Shown here piece after piece: positions 140 to 4,909 of a stretch of DNA of 5,014 bases. The notes beneath the pieces were generated by a model. That model searched no databases. It worked only from the letters and a program-made list of their open reading frames with translations, and was not told the origin of the DNA. The DNA lies in NCBI GenBank assembly GCA_031279925.1, contig JAITHQ010000058.1, positions 1 through 5,014 of the forward strand. Reading direction: 5' to 3'. A program made the position numbers and the translations under genes. Origin of the DNA: Treponema sp. Its GTDB lineage: Bacteria; Spirochaetota; Spirochaetia; Treponematales; Breznakiellaceae. Numbering within the stretch: the first letter of the stretch is position 1; each line of letters starts with the position of its first letter.

Positions 140-485
140 ATGAAATATATTATACCTGTTATGCTGGTTATCCTGCCAGAACGAGGCCCGCTGGTATCCC
201 GCCGCTGACGTGGAGATTGCCCATTACTACGAGTACGCCGATACATCCGGGCCTAAACTGGCCGTAACCCTGGTCATCCACAACACCGGCGATACGTCCA
301 TCCTGTCCAGCACCGTTACCCTGCGGGCGGCCACCAATAAGCGAAAGTATCTGCAAACCGCCGCCTCAAATGGAAAAATCATCCCCGGCGGTAAAGTCGC
401 CCTGACCGTCTCGCTGGCCTTTCTGGAGCCGGACGAGCAGGTAAACCAGGACGGAATCAGCATCTACAGCAGTTTCTTTGATTAG
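140..485 (+). pseudogene. Small putative lipoprotein, frameshifted in its signal peptide
   Basis: The body of this protein reads in the frame of base 210 and ends at TAG 483-485. It has no recognised domain, but its beta-rich pattern (VTLVIHNTGD, GKVALTVSLAFLEPDE) suggests a small folded periplasmic domain. The only start with a good ribosome site (GGAG 130-133, six bases before ATG 140) is in another frame. It encodes MKYIIPVMLVIL, a typical signal-peptide start, then stops at 206-208. The downstream frame, read upstream of 210, gives ...LSCQNEARWYPAADVEI. Joining the two near 170-176 yields MKYIIPVMLVIL-SCQNE, a credible lipoprotein signal with a lipobox Cys. I infer a frameshift there and an ancestral protein of about 115 residues. 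Initiation at GTG 210 is possible but has no ribosome site and would lose export. The next gene follows after 12 bases, so this is the first visible gene of the operon. Confidence 0.6.
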
Positions 486-497
486 CCGGAGGGCGGC

Positions 498-1088
498 ATG
501 GAAATATTTATGTTTTTGGCGCTTACCCGCCTGCTGGTTTCGGAAGAAGAACTGCGCTTTGCTACAATGTACAAACAGGGTTACGATACCTCCTGCGGAA
601 TCGCCGTTACCGCATCGCTCCTTAACTATTACTGGAATGTCCCCGTTACGGAACCGGACCTTTACCAGACCATGATCCTGGACCGGCTTGACGGCGAAGC
701 GGCAGCCTACACCATTACTTTTTATGACATCATGCAGTATACGCAAACCCGCCAAATCGCGGCCAGGGCCTACAAAATGGACTGGAATACCCTTGGCGAT
801 TCGCTTGAAAAAGGCTATGCCCCTATCATCATCCATTACGAAAAACCCCGGCCCTACTTTGCCCTTTTGCTGCGCCTGCTCGATAACTATGCACTCGCGG
901 CAGACCCGGCCAACGGTTTAGAAATCGTGGATAAAACTACGTTCGAGAAAAACTATTCCGGCAATGCCCTGCTCACCGCGTTCCGGGACATTCAGAAAAA
1001 CACCGGCCTTATCGAACAAATTACCGGGGAAAAAACCCGGCGGCTGCATATTCTGCAAGACCTGGCCCGTTCCCGGAGGCGATGGTGA
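498..1088 (+). CDS. C39 peptidase-like protein with Tyr at the catalytic His position
   Basis: This 196-residue protein matches the C39 (bacteriocin-processing, papain-like) fold. The N-terminal part reads YKQGYDTSCGIA, with Q27 and C33 spaced like the oxyanion Gln and nucleophile Cys of ComA-type C39 domains (Q11, C17). The C-terminal part reads PYFALLL...AADPANG, with D136 matching the catalytic Asp. The residue 16 before this Asp, where ComA has His96 (Asp112), is Tyr120 (TAC at 855-857), so the enzyme is probably inactive or altered. H113 is nearby but out of register. No ABC transporter is attached, so it is a stand-alone form, as in FapD. The N-terminus (IFMFLALTRLLV) is a weak signal-like segment interrupted by R11. 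GGAGGG at 488-493 precedes the ATG. The last codons overlap the barrel gene by 7 bases, implying translational coupling. The ORF itself is intact. Confidence 0.75.
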   Translation: MEIFMFLALTRLLVSEEELRFATMYKQGYDTSCGIAVTASLLNYYWNVPVTEPDLYQTMILDRLDGEAAAYTITFYDIMQYTQTRQIAARAYKMDWNTLGDSLEKGYAPIIIHYEKPRPYFALLLRLLDNYALAADPANGLEIVDKTTFEKNYSGNALLTAFRDIQKNTGLIEQITGEKTRRLHILQDLARSRRRW

Positions 1089-1444
1089 AAAAAGCGTTAC
1101 TGTCATGGCTTGGGCTGCTGGCCGGAGCGGCTCTCTGGGCGGCGGACCCCGATTACCAGCGCTACGATCTGGTTCGGGAGCCCAGCGAGCTTCTTGTTGA
1201 AGGTTCCTTTCATTATTGGGCGGAAGAGACGGATGCGCGTGATTTCCATACCCTGCTTCTGGGCGTGAGCGCGGAATACTCCTTCAAAACCAGCCACAGC
1301 GTTTCGTTCAGCCTGCCGTACACATTGGGCCTGTACAACAACCCCGATTCCCGGCAAAAAGAGTACTATTCTTTTGGCGATCTGCGCCTGTCGTATGAAT
1401 ACTTGAAGCGGTTCAATCATATCAATCTTTTCTTCGGCCCCCTG

Positions 1445-1452
1445 GTAACAAT
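1445..1452 (+). repeat. Target-site duplication, left copy
   Basis: GTAACAAT directly abuts the left inverted repeat of the 269-bp element. It matches GTAACGAT at 1722-1729 in 7 of 8 bases. Both copies encode V-T-I in the barrel gene. Confidence 0.75.
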
Positions 1453-1479
1453 CCACTGTCAACAATTTAAGCGTATCCG

Positions 1480-1560
1480 GCGGGGGCGTTGCGGGGGTGG
1501 AACCCCCGCATGGGGGGTAGCGGAAGCCCGTAGGGCTGGAGCGAGGGGGGCTTCCCCCCT
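1480..1560 (+). repeat. GC-rich triple-hairpin block inside the MITE
   Basis: Three adjacent inverted repeats are visible. GCGGGGGT (1491-1498) pairs with ACCCCCGC (1502-1509) across a 3-base loop. AGCCC and GGGCT flank a 3-base loop near 1525-1537. AGGGGGG (1544-1550) pairs with CCCCCCT (1554-1560) across CTT. The base composition is much more GC-rich than either the barrel gene or the nested palindromic units, so this block has its own origin. It may be a dispersed repeat of the genome or a structured RNA segment. Confidence 0.6.
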
Positions 1561-1564
1561 CTTA

Positions 1565-1693
1565 GAGCCTGTTCAAAATCTGGAATTTTGGCGTTGCAAA
1601 CGTCAAAATTCTACCTTGCAGGCTCGAAAAGAGCCCGAAAATCGGGATTTTTGCGGTCAATAGACCGCAAAAATCCACAATTTGAACAGGCTC
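1565..1693. mobile_element. Nested pair of palindromic units, head-to-head
   Basis: The segment is bounded by GAGCCTGTTCAAA (1565-1577) and its perfect reverse complement (1681-1693). TTA on both sides (1562-1564, 1694-1696) looks like a 3-bp target duplication. It consists of two units separated by GAAAA. Unit 1 (1565-1625, 61 bp) contains the arm GAATTTTGGCGTT and its near-complement. Unit 2 (1631-1693, 63 bp) contains a perfect 14-bp stem, 1645-1658 with 1663-1676, and loop AATA. Both units have GAGCC-type ends, an asymmetric central palindrome and a TTTGAACAGGCTC end facing outward. GAGCCTG ends with a TNA-type 3-bp duplication recall the IS1031 group of the IS5 family, which could supply the transposase (inference). 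Confidence 0.75.
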
Positions 1694-1721
1694 TTAGTTT
1701 TTCTTAAGTTGTTGACAGTGG

Positions 1722-1729
1722 GTAACGAT
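1722..1729 (+). repeat. Target-site duplication, right copy
   Basis: GTAACGAT directly follows the right inverted repeat of the 269-bp element and pairs with GTAACAAT at 1445-1452. The single difference suggests the insertion is not very recent. Confidence 0.75.
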
Positions 1730-2042
1730 CCCCCTCGCGGAACAGAACGAATATGCGGCGCGGGAAGGGGTTTATTTGGCAGGTGACGGCAGATATTCGA
1801 TAGGGGCGGGCGTATCCGTAACCGGCATCCGTGACCCGGTCGTGTGGAACGCGGGTTTCCAGTATACTGTGGGTCTGCCAAAGCAGGAGCGGGTTTACCG
1901 TTCATGGCAGCCGGGCAACATACAACTGTCCGCGGGTTTTTCAGATTTGCTCAACTACCGTTTTGGTTTTTCCTTTGCGCTGACCCAGCAGATTGGCCTT
2001 CCGGCGATAATGGGGGACCACATAGACCCGGCGGGGGTTTTG

Positions 2043-2103
2043 GAGCCTGCAAGGTAGAATTTTGGCGTTTGCAACGCCAAAATTCCAGATTTTGAACAGG
2101 CTC
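2043..2103. mobile_element. 61-bp palindromic MITE, second copy, in the barrel gene
   Basis: This unit is the reverse complement of 1565-1625 with 60 of 61 bases identical (the difference is at position 39 of the unit). It is preceded by TTG (2040-2042) and followed by TTA (2104-2106), an imperfect 3-bp duplication. Removing the unit plus 3 bases (64 bp) brings AGV and SSAKGE into one frame of the barrel gene. The copy proves that the 61-bp unit can move on its own, without the partner unit it has at 1631-1693. Confidence 0.85.
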
Positions 2104-2294
2104 TTAAGCAGCGCCAAAGGTGAATTGATGATTTTGTTTGAAAAAGACACGGTACGCCTTTCCGTTGAAACGTCCCTGTACCCGCTCAACAGACCTTTCT
2201 TGCTTGGATTAGTCTACGGGCACAAGTTCGATTTAAGCGCCAAAAGCGGCGGCCTGAAAAGGCATGAACAAACGAGGTAACGCAAAGTCGCCCA

Positions 2295-2595: not shown

Positions 2596-3123
2596 ATGAA
2601 AGAGACAGCTATGTACGCCAAATACAATCAGGCGGGAAACAGGGTTATTTACGATTTATTAAGCAAGATGTCCAATGAGGAACGGGAAAAGGACAGGGGA
2701 AGCTATTATGGCAGCCTTTCTGCTTTGTTCCGCCATGTTATCTGGGGAACACGGCTTTTCCTGGGCGTGTACAAAGAAGCGCTTGTCAATAACACTGCGG
2801 CCTTAAAGGCGATTGCCGGCGCCGAGAAATTCCCCATGCCGCCGGAAGGCATTTTAAGCACAGATCAGTGGAAGAAACTGGACGCGACACTGAAAGCCGC
2901 CGATGCCGCCTATGTGGGTATGGCAGAAGCTGTCAGCGCCGCCGAGCTTGCGCAGCCGCTGAAAATTGACTGGTACGGGGGAAAGCCTCCATCGGTTCCG
3001 CTTTCTTTTATGTTAAGCCAGCTTTTGGTTCACAACACCCACCATCGGGGACAGATTTCCCAGATACTCGACTCACTCAAGATCGATAATAACTATTCGG
3101 GGATTAACGTTACATTTTTGTGA
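2596..3123 (+). CDS. DinB/YfiT-like family protein, putative metal-dependent enzyme
   Basis: The 175-residue product has the length and layout of the DinB superfamily, a four-helix bundle with a three-His metal site. The candidate ligands are H47 in the second helix (ALFRHVIWGTRLFL) and H146 and H150 in the C-terminal helix (LLVHNTHHRGQISQIL), the usual HxxxH plus distant His pattern. Some relatives are thiol-dependent S-transferases (bacillithiol, mycothiol) or hydrolases. The substrate cannot be told from this sequence. The start at 2596 is set by AAGGAG at 2584-2589, six bases upstream, and M6 has no such site. The gene stands alone, with a promoter-like site upstream and a terminator 57 bases downstream, and it shows no damage. 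The product is presumably cytoplasmic, since no signal peptide or membrane segment is seen. Confidence 0.85.
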   Translation: MKETAMYAKYNQAGNRVIYDLLSKMSNEEREKDRGSYYGSLSALFRHVIWGTRLFLGVYKEALVNNTAALKAIAGAEKFPMPPEGILSTDQWKKLDATLKAADAAYVGMAEAVSAAELAQPLKIDWYGGKPPSVPLSFMLSQLLVHNTHHRGQISQILDSLKIDNNYSGINVTFL

Positions 3124-3237: not shown

Positions 3238-3471
3238 TTACCCGGATACAACGGTTTCAGCCGCCTTTGCGTTATCCGGGTTTTCTGATTTCGGCTGTCC
3301 GCTGCGGTTGATGTATTGTTTCAGCGCGGCGAACCCCCGCCCGACTACGGGAACACGGCCGGATGAAAGGTCTTGATCCGTTATCTCATCGTCAAAACTG
3401 GGGATGTTCTGTTTTTCTAAAGCCTTCAATTTTTCCGGCGTCCATTTGGCGCGAATTTCTGACGACGTCAT
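3238..3471 (-). pseudogene. BrnA-like antitoxin, C-terminally truncated
   Basis: The 77-residue frame reads MTSSEIRAKWTPEKLKAL, then IPSFDDEITDQDL and GRGFAALKQYINRSGQPK. This is the N-terminal two thirds typical of BrnA/CopG-type antitoxins of BrnTA modules, which bind and neutralise the BrnT RNase. In full-length members the next part is a ribbon-helix-helix DNA-binding segment (IRL..DVL...). Here the sequence ends in NPDNAKAAETVVSG and no such segment is visible in the other two frames downstream, so the DNA-binding part is probably lost. The start at 3471 lies 7 bases after the toxin relic's stop codon, the usual brnT-brnA order. A short functional variant is an alternative, but the broken toxin next to it favours decay. 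Confidence 0.6.
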
Positions 3472-3478
3472 AATAGTT

Positions 3479-3743
3479 TCATTCTTGCGTTTTCATATCT
3501 TTTGCTCCATATTTTTTCATGAACTTGAAAAAGTGCTATTACTCGAATCTTGCCATTGCGCGGCGTCCAGCAAAGACACAGCCGCAATTCGCCAACCAGA
3601 CCGAACGACAGAAATCTATCCTCGCCATAATCATGCCGATTATCCTGGCGGGTTTTGACATTCGGATCCGCCAGAACGAATTCGGCAATCTCGAAATCAA
3701 GCCCATGCTTGGCGATGTTCGCCTCGCGTTTGTTTTCATCCCA
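3479..3743 (-). pseudogene. BrnT-like toxin relic, at least two frameshifts
   Basis: Reading the - strand from 3743 gives WDENKREANIAKHGLDFEIAEF, then DPNVKTRQDNRHDYGEDRFLSFGL and WTPRNGKIRVI. This is the classic BrnT pattern (WDxxKxxxNxxKHG near the N-terminus; R...GLV...TPR....IRVI later). A stop codon (3746-3744) sits directly before the Trp. One base less in the ATA-A-TGG junction would join it to an upstream frame ending QFI, so the 5' end is frameshifted. After RVI (about 3541) the frame is lost again. The normal BrnT ending (KKYGAKDMKTQE, stop 3481-3479) is found one frame over. The two blocks total about 85 residues, close to the family length. BrnT is a ribosome-independent RNase toxin, and this copy cannot make an intact product. 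Confidence 0.7.
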
Positions 3744-3926: not shown

Positions 3927-4628
3927 TTACTTTTTGTTTATTTTCACGACAATATCGTTCCAGCTTCCAGGATTTAAACAAAAAAATAAAATTTTATGTT
4001 TGCCAGATACTAGCAATTCGTCTACAGCCTTGATTACACCATACGGACCTTTTGATACATAGTCATAAATAATATAATCATTGAATTGTATAATACCACC
4101 ATCTTTTACTTTGTTTAGTAATACAGTAATATCTTTTTTTACACTTTCATAATCGTGGCCAGCATCTAAATACACATAATCAAAATAATCATCGTTGAAT
4201 ACACTTAATACTTCCCATGAGAATCCTTTCTTGATGCAGAATACTCCTTTATTTATTTCTGCTTTATATTTTTTTTCGATATAATCTACATGTTCTAAAT
4301 TTAAATCTGTAAAATCAGTTCTATTTCTGAATAATTCATTCCCGGGACTCCCCTCAAAAATGTCGATAGCGTAAAATTTTGAGGGTTCTAAATTATCAAT
4401 TATTTTTCTACTGAAATCTCCATAGGCAACTCCAACTTCTGCCACAATTCCTCCTTTGGGTAATAACGTTAAAGCAAAATCACGATTGGGTAATAACCTG
4501 GCATTTTGCATAGTATCATACGGCAAAGGAAGTCCTTGTAAAATTTCTAGGTTTTTAGAATTTCGCTGTATATCATATCCCAGCAGTTTAAATATATTTT
4601 TCACCATTTTTTTAATAATATTTTCCAT
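3927..4628 (-). CDS. Class I SAM-dependent methyltransferase (Methyltransf_24 type)
   Basis: With the ATG at 4628 the product is 233 residues. A TTG start 16 codons upstream (4676) is possible but has no ribosome site, whereas GGGA lies about 8 bases before the ATG. The SAM-binding motif I is VAEVGVAYGDFSRKI (E64, G66, G70) and the acidic residue after strand 2 is D89 in YAIDIFEG. FDYVYLDAGHDYESVKKDI (about 149-167) is the hallmark D-x-G-H-x-Y segment of Methyltransf_24/CmcI-like enzymes. It is followed by GGIIQFNDY. Members methylate sugars or secondary metabolites, often in polysaccharide clusters. The acceptor cannot be deduced here. The gene is strongly AT-rich with AT-ending codons, unlike the operon on the left, which suggests recent acquisition. 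All motifs are intact. It stands alone, with decayed toxin-antitoxin remains downstream. Confidence 0.85.
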   Translation of the reverse strand: MENIIKKMVKNIFKLLGYDIQRNSKNLEILQGLPLPYDTMQNARLLPNRDFALTLLPKGGIVAEVGVAYGDFSRKIIDNLEPSKFYAIDIFEGSPGNELFRNRTDFTDLNLEHVDYIEKKYKAEINKGVFCIKKGFSWEVLSVFNDDYFDYVYLDAGHDYESVKKDITVLLNKVKDGGIIQFNDYIIYDYVSKGPYGVIKAVDELLVSGKHKILFFCLNPGSWNDIVVKINKK

Positions 4629-4909
4629 ATAATTTTCCCGTTTATAGTCCTTTGAAATTTTATTTTTACAGGGCAACGCCCCACATTTACCAAAGCAAAA
4701 AAGCCTTTCAACTCCATTTAGGAGTATTGGTAATTATAGCGGCATCTTCCTTTTGGGATTTTTAATAGCGTTTTCACGGTTTCCATTTTTCACCCCTTCA
4801 TTATTTGCGGGTAATTTTTAAAGCAGTCGTCCACCAACGGGGTGTTTTTTACTGCCTATAGATTAGGCTTAGTATGGGGTAATTCAAAAGTTTGTCAATA
4901 GGGCGCAAT
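4629..4909. other. Gene-poor AT-rich stretch upstream of the methyltransferase
   Basis: No solid gene is seen. On the - strand a 22-codon frame (4786-4718, METVKTLLKIPKGRCRYNYQYS) has an AAGGGG-like site before its ATG and could be a leader or a gene fragment. The frame starting at 4717 right behind it lacks a ribosome site and overlaps the methyltransferase. CCACC/GGGTG followed by TTTTTT (about 4831-4850) is a weak terminator-like shape on the + strand. The stretch presumably carries the methyltransferase 5' region. Confidence 0.35.
4869..4898 (-). promoter_or_regulatory. Weak candidate promoter toward the methyltransferase
   Basis: On the - strand a perfect TTGACA (4898-4893) is followed after 18 bases by TACTAA (4874-4869), which matches the -10 consensus poorly. 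It points toward the small frame at 4786 and the methyltransferase at 4628. The long leader makes this tentative. Confidence 0.25.

Follow-up and report, generated by a model that had tools for sequence, protein, structure and literature searches.

The window, by which we mean the whole stretch of 5,014 bases analysed here and seemingly one entire contig, carries a gene for an outer-membrane barrel that non-autonomous transposons from two families have very probably inactivated, namely a nested pair and a third, probably trimmed MITE, in an operon that itself seems to be decaying. The sequence-only reading of this DNA had described two independent insertions in the gene, whose removal restores a frame of 285 codons, and had taken this as giving the exact boundaries of both. 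That mobile-type foreign DNA interrupts a single gene is borne out by uninterrupted homologues and by target duplications, but the insertions number at least three and come from two families, with the second site sharing the IS5-type family of the inner element at the first. We compared the window, untouched and with nothing excised, with homologues, and used relatives' genomes in place of the source genome.

Exact matches to a 29-base probe taken from the element were found in 7 stretches of three MAGs of the Pc512 series (Spirochaetaceae bacterium / Treponema sp.), a series which we take to be of termite-gut origin. In the element scan of three relatives (G001, G002 and G003) the candidates scored were, respectively, 40 of 57, 40 of 277 and 27 of 27, making the counts lower bounds; the relatives are draft MAGs whose contigs are broken by repeats, and several element copies lie at contig ends. 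At gathering scores, Rfam returned no family in the window, and of the eight papers in which the MITE phrase and Treponema occur together none, judged by title and opening of the abstract, concerns treponeme MITEs.

The open reading frame that begins at 1082 reads through into foreign DNA and stops at 1663. A protein search with this natural frame, in which residues 1-122 were scored, found 8 proteins including the window's own, and the homologue P0002 (286 aa) was 96% identical across these residues. P0002, P0003, P0004 and other homologues are uninterrupted; of the 195 genomes in the family to which G002 belongs, 12 have homologues of the barrel. Aligned to the untouched window, P0002 falls into three pieces, residues 1-123 on 1085-1453, 121-226 on 1722-2039 and 227-286 on 2098-2277, where the overlap at residues 121-123 corresponds to the codons duplicated at the first insertion. 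The gene thus consists of an N-terminal part at 1082-1452 (plus strand, start ATG 1082 or GTG 1085, P0002 residues 1-123, 95% identity), a middle part at 1722-2037 (plus strand, residues 121-226, 94% identity), of which the host sequence ends at 2037-2039 with T's common to the element blurring the edge, and a C-terminal part with the stop codon at 2104-2280 (plus strand, residues 227-286, 90% identity, from the tblastn stretch 2098-2277).

The first insertion begins with an outer element of 269 bp at 1453-1721, bounded by 19-bp inverted ends (1453-1471 and 1703-1721) that are complementary at 18 of 19 positions. It is flanked by a left target copy, GTAACAAT, at 1445-1452 and a right copy, GTAACGAT, at 1722-1729, an 8-bp duplication with one mismatch. 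Element and duplication together make up the 277 bp claimed earlier for this site, and here the boundaries hold, since the flanks (7 of 8 bases identical) and the alignment to P0002 agree with them, and homologues continue smoothly across the repaired junction. There is no transposase-size reading frame inside the outer element. Its end pattern, with one mismatch allowed, was found in 69 of the 195 genomes in the G002 family, with a control pattern giving 0 in every row. Among 16 distinct pairs of outer ends, the 8-bp flanks match at 7-8 bases in 10 and at 2-3 bases in 6, and a cross-row control gave 0 matching flanks in 240. Two long pairs enclose an IS4-family frame scored against NF033592 (cut-off 115), one with ends 1,349 bp apart (L103, 150 bits, perfect 8-bp duplication) and the other with ends 1,364 bp apart (L104, 148 bits, no duplication), and the YREK spacing is visible by eye in these transposase frames; a third long pair, L105, spans 1,171 bp. 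Because its ends are common to IS4 transposase-bearing pairs and accompany 8-bp duplications, we classify the outer element as a MITE with IS4-family ends.

The GC-rich core of the outer element (1477-1559, plus strand) is a dispersed repeat that also occurs without outer ends close by. Elsewhere, two core copies had no end that could be found (L097, L102), one had an end-like match 145 bp away (L093), one had a single outer end (L096) and two had both ends (L094, L095), and the outer element looks like a chimera of core and ends. Other IS4-type MITEs of 134-194 bp have the same ends with varied cores (L106, L107, L108, L109, L110, L058 and L074), and a common core lies between the outer-type ends of L107 and L109. 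In G073, a 3.3-Mb genome that includes loci L130, L140 and L145, there are 328 matches to the outer end.

Inside the outer element lies a second one, the inner element, of 129 bp (1565-1693), with ends GAGCCTGTTCA and TGAACAGGCTC and made up of hairpin A (1565-1625), a linker (1626-1630) and hairpin B (1631-1693), and flanked by TTA at 1562-1564 and again at 1694-1696 as a 3-bp duplication. As single-stranded DNA it folds far more stably than shuffled sequences (z -10.8). Counting only copies with 40-bp flanks, and leaving out partial and contig-end copies, there are 17 distinct full copies including that in the window; 14 of them have identical 3-bp flanks (9 TTA, 5 TAA) and 3 do not, while identical TTA/TAA flanks arise by chance at 2.6% of 20,000 random positions. 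The inner-end pattern was found in 10 of the 195 genomes in the G002 family. At L155 a start frame matching PF13340 (42 bits, cut-off 34.3) stands beside an identical 17-base inner end, and transposase-like C-terminal frames lie within inner-type ends at L121, L122 and L144; we take both PF13340 and these C-terminal frames to be of IS5 type. A TNA target is typical of an IS5 subgroup. The search recovered no IS5-type insertion sequence complete at both ends, the parent of the inner element being seen only as insertion sequence ends in G125, G019 and G034, and PF01609 and PF13340 gave 6 and 2 matches in G001-G003, mostly partial, none bounded by inner ends. By its ends, we regard the inner element as a MITE with IS5-family ends. 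G073 has 66 matches to the inner end, and its copies with inner-type ends, about 210-295 bp long, enclose a different GC-rich core.

The two elements can be told apart by how they occur elsewhere. Among the candidates scored, the inner block (window 1561-1697) matches by itself in G001, G002 and G003; a match to the outer block and its ends alone (window 1453-1561 plus 1691-1735) occurs in G002, and G001 and G003 contain pieces of the outer core. A single composite element of 277 bp was set aside on these grounds, with the inner part matching alone in three genomes and the outer part alone in G002, and we read the first insertion as two nested elements, the inner MITE being flanked by TTA on either side. 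At one locus, L033, the outer element is 137 bp long, 97% identical over 109 bases and free of the inner one; as 269 - 137 = 132, which is the 129 bp of the inner element plus the 3-bp TTA duplication, its length is exactly that expected for an outer element lacking the inner one. At the point of inner insertion L033 reads CTG rather than TTA, and its flanks match at 2 of 8 bases, so that it has no 8-bp duplication. It is conceivable, if on balance doubtful, that the outer element landed in the barrel gene already carrying the inner one and that the 269-bp composite moved as one unit, since its outer ends are intact and nothing in the window speaks against such a move. What makes us favour it less is that among the candidates scored (40 of 57, 40 of 277 and 27 of 27) none extends further than 5 bases outside the inner element with its TTA copies, and that the sole close outer copy among the matches listed, that of L033, is without the inner element.

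The second insertion is probably of a different nature from that first described. It had been given as a unit of 61 bp which, with its 3-bp duplication, made 64 bp in all, but the supposed target copies are TTG and TTA, and the TTTTG at the left edge matches the element family. The foreign DNA at 2038-2103 (minus strand) is probably a remnant of a second inner-type MITE, in which the linker TTTTG (2038-2042) is joined to hairpin A (2043-2103), and hairpin B and the left target copy are missing. The surviving right target copy, TTA at 2104-2106, is a host Leu codon aligned to a Leu of P0002, in keeping with the TTA/TAA flanks of the family. The 61-bp hairpin at 2043-2103 falls between residues 226 and 227 of P0002, is up to 100% identical to hairpin A of inner-family copies elsewhere, folds with a z of -6.3 and has ends, GAGCC and GGCTC, that pair. 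In 9 of the 17 full inner copies a CAAAA linker joins hairpins A and B, and TTTTG|GAGCCTGCAAGG at the second insertion is identical to this internal linker read on the opposite strand; on that strand the full copies read GGGCTC-TTTTG-GAGCC, as against GGGGG-TTTTG-GAGCC in the window. When inspected for both ends and both target copies, the second insertion proved to lack its left half. A likely mirror case, judged by eye, is L087, which has hairpin B and the linker and would have lost hairpin A.

The protein comparison agrees. At this junction P0002 reads DPAGVRVLSRAKGE, and the junction proposed by the sequence-only reading is two residues shorter, so that the continuity with the nearest homologues, complete at the first junction, falls short by these two residues at the second. 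By arithmetic, its repair from GTG 1085 yields 284 residues against the 286 of P0002. When P0002 is aligned with five other homologues of full length and with two locus rows, none of them has a gap relative to P0002 at this position; among more distant loci there is likewise no gap at L038, L040, L041 and L043, two additional residues at L039 and one at L042, whereas L044 has two residues fewer slightly upstream and L047 one fewer net. The empty site at this junction is known at the protein level only. Given the linker at the left edge and the two missing residues, a trimmed MITE is a better reading than an exact 61-bp unit, and the second insertion was probably a full inner-type MITE, later cut to about half its length by a deletion of roughly 70-75 bp. 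Two exact and independent insertions were for the same two reasons rejected at this site.

A rather unlikely alternative can be built on the lone hairpins of the family, in that the 61-bp hairpin would have transposed by itself with a TTR duplication (TTG/TTA), an unrelated deletion of 6 bp having removed two host codons. Half of the partial copies shown (6 of 12, by eye) are indeed lone hairpins with TAA/TTA on both sides, the pairing GAGCC/GGCTC ends would suit a unit of this kind, and the length of the barrel protein at the second junction does vary among distant homologues. Yet the TTTTG on the left is the internal linker of the family, the alternative calls for another event at precisely this junction, and while 14 of the 17 full copies have TTA/TAA on both sides, TTG occurs in none of them on the side concerned. 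The lone hairpins themselves (about 60-66 bp, TTA/TAA on both sides by eye: L083, L084, L085, L086, L090 and L091) could be mobile units or products of slippage between GAGCC repeats. That repeats merely joined unrelated metagenome pieces during assembly is very improbable: the window does seem to be an entire contig and several relatives' copies lie at contig ends, but the three gene pieces, 90-95% identical to P0002, align to it in the correct order and so belong to one gene, which makes a chimeric contig unlikely, and target duplications of 8 bp and 3 bp are what genuine insertions would leave.

Taking the trimmed MITE as the preferred reading of the second site, a history of the gene can be proposed. 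An IS4-family-ended MITE landed in the VTI codons, duplicating 8 bp, as both structure and homologues show; the 129-bp IS5-family-ended MITE lies at a TTA inside the outer MITE, with TTA duplicated, having entered either before or after the outer element arrived in the barrel gene. Some 310 bases downstream in the gene, another IS5-type MITE probably entered at a Leu codon, TTA, and would afterwards have been reduced to hairpin A and the linker by a deletion that also took the left target copy and, with hairpin B, two codons of the host. Judging from the shared ends, both MITE families were presumably moved in trans by the matching full-length insertion sequences.

The gene so interrupted is, by its predicted fold, a FapF-like outer-membrane barrel. 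When compared with the fold of FapF, the model showed a 12-stranded barrel, with about 34 residues, signal included, ahead of the first strand; structural alignments to FapF have 13-16% identity, and a COG4313 channel scores almost as high as FapF. A search of the PDB by sequence with the barrel profile gave no match at E up to 1. The barrel gene is the third in an operon with a lipoprotein gene at 140-485 (plus strand) and a C39 peptidase gene at 498-1088 (plus strand; PF03412, 3.1e-14) that overlaps the start of the barrel gene. Against the NCBIfam model for FapD the peptidase scores 4.6e-9 and 35.9 bits, far below the cut-off of 330. A homologue of the peptidase adjoins the barrel at six loci (L038, L039, L041, L042, L044 and L048), and the trio of small lipoprotein, C39 peptidase and FapF-like barrel is common to the first four of these. 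In the lipoprotein gene of the window, the signal (from 140) and the body (210-485) are in different frames, read from a single contig where a sequencing error could mimic a frameshift, while in four relatives they share one frame. Since the lipoprotein is out of frame as well, and with the 8-bp duplication drifted at one base, the operon seems to be decaying. The neighbouring genes further along are ordinary, a DinB-family protein at 2596-3123 and a Methyltransf_24-type methyltransferase at 3927-4676 (minus strand). Between them, at 3474-3743 (minus strand), is a frame for a BrnT-type toxin of a type II toxin-antitoxin system (PF04365, 75 bits), probably truncated, as it begins right after a stop codon and has no start, followed by a 77-aa frame (3238-3471) with no Pfam match.

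With these results the ends, the targets and the probable parents are given for two MITE families of treponeme-like spirochaetes, and the host gene adds a spirochaete case, here in decay, of a FapF-like barrel with a C39 peptidase partner. They also illustrate that a frame restored by excision is no proof of exact boundaries, for the frame left behind by a trimmed MITE may seem intact and yet be short of host codons. One may speculate, and we do so tentatively, that one pair of IS4-type ends has time and again enclosed unrelated dispersed palindromes to form new chimeric MITEs, and that the two-hairpin IS5-type MITE spreads both whole and as self-transposing single hairpins of about 61-66 bp. 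If such a repeat-capturing economy were real, each repeat would be both landing pad and cargo for the next in these treponemes.

Both MITEs are of known kinds, although these members are themselves new, and in this respect the finding is tidy and unsurprising. Like MITEs derived from IS5, the inner family has ends, GAGCCTGTTCAAAATCT, in common with a PF13340-bearing insertion sequence end, and 3-bp TTA/TAA flanks; it differs in being built of two diverged hairpins around a 5-base linker and in occurring whole and as single hairpins. REP and BIME palindromes are single and paired short hairpins scattered in genomes, and the inner family resembles them in this, but most of its whole copies carry target duplications and IS5-like ends. 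The outer element, like MITEs derived from IS4, shares its ends with an insertion sequence (about 1.35 kb), makes 8-bp duplications and has no transposase, but the cores of its family vary between copies, and other dispersed repeats can serve as cores. Insertion sequences of the IS4 family have YREK DDE transposases (PMC2266710), and the outer end sequence, CCACTGTCAAC, has no clean fit to any of the subgroup consensus sequences in Table 1 of that survey. In the Fap system a FapF barrel is accompanied by the C39 peptidase FapD (PMC5557850, PMC6173800). The window has a FapF-like barrel and an adjacent C39 peptidase, the latter far below the FapD cut-off, and differs in that a small lipoprotein precedes the pair.
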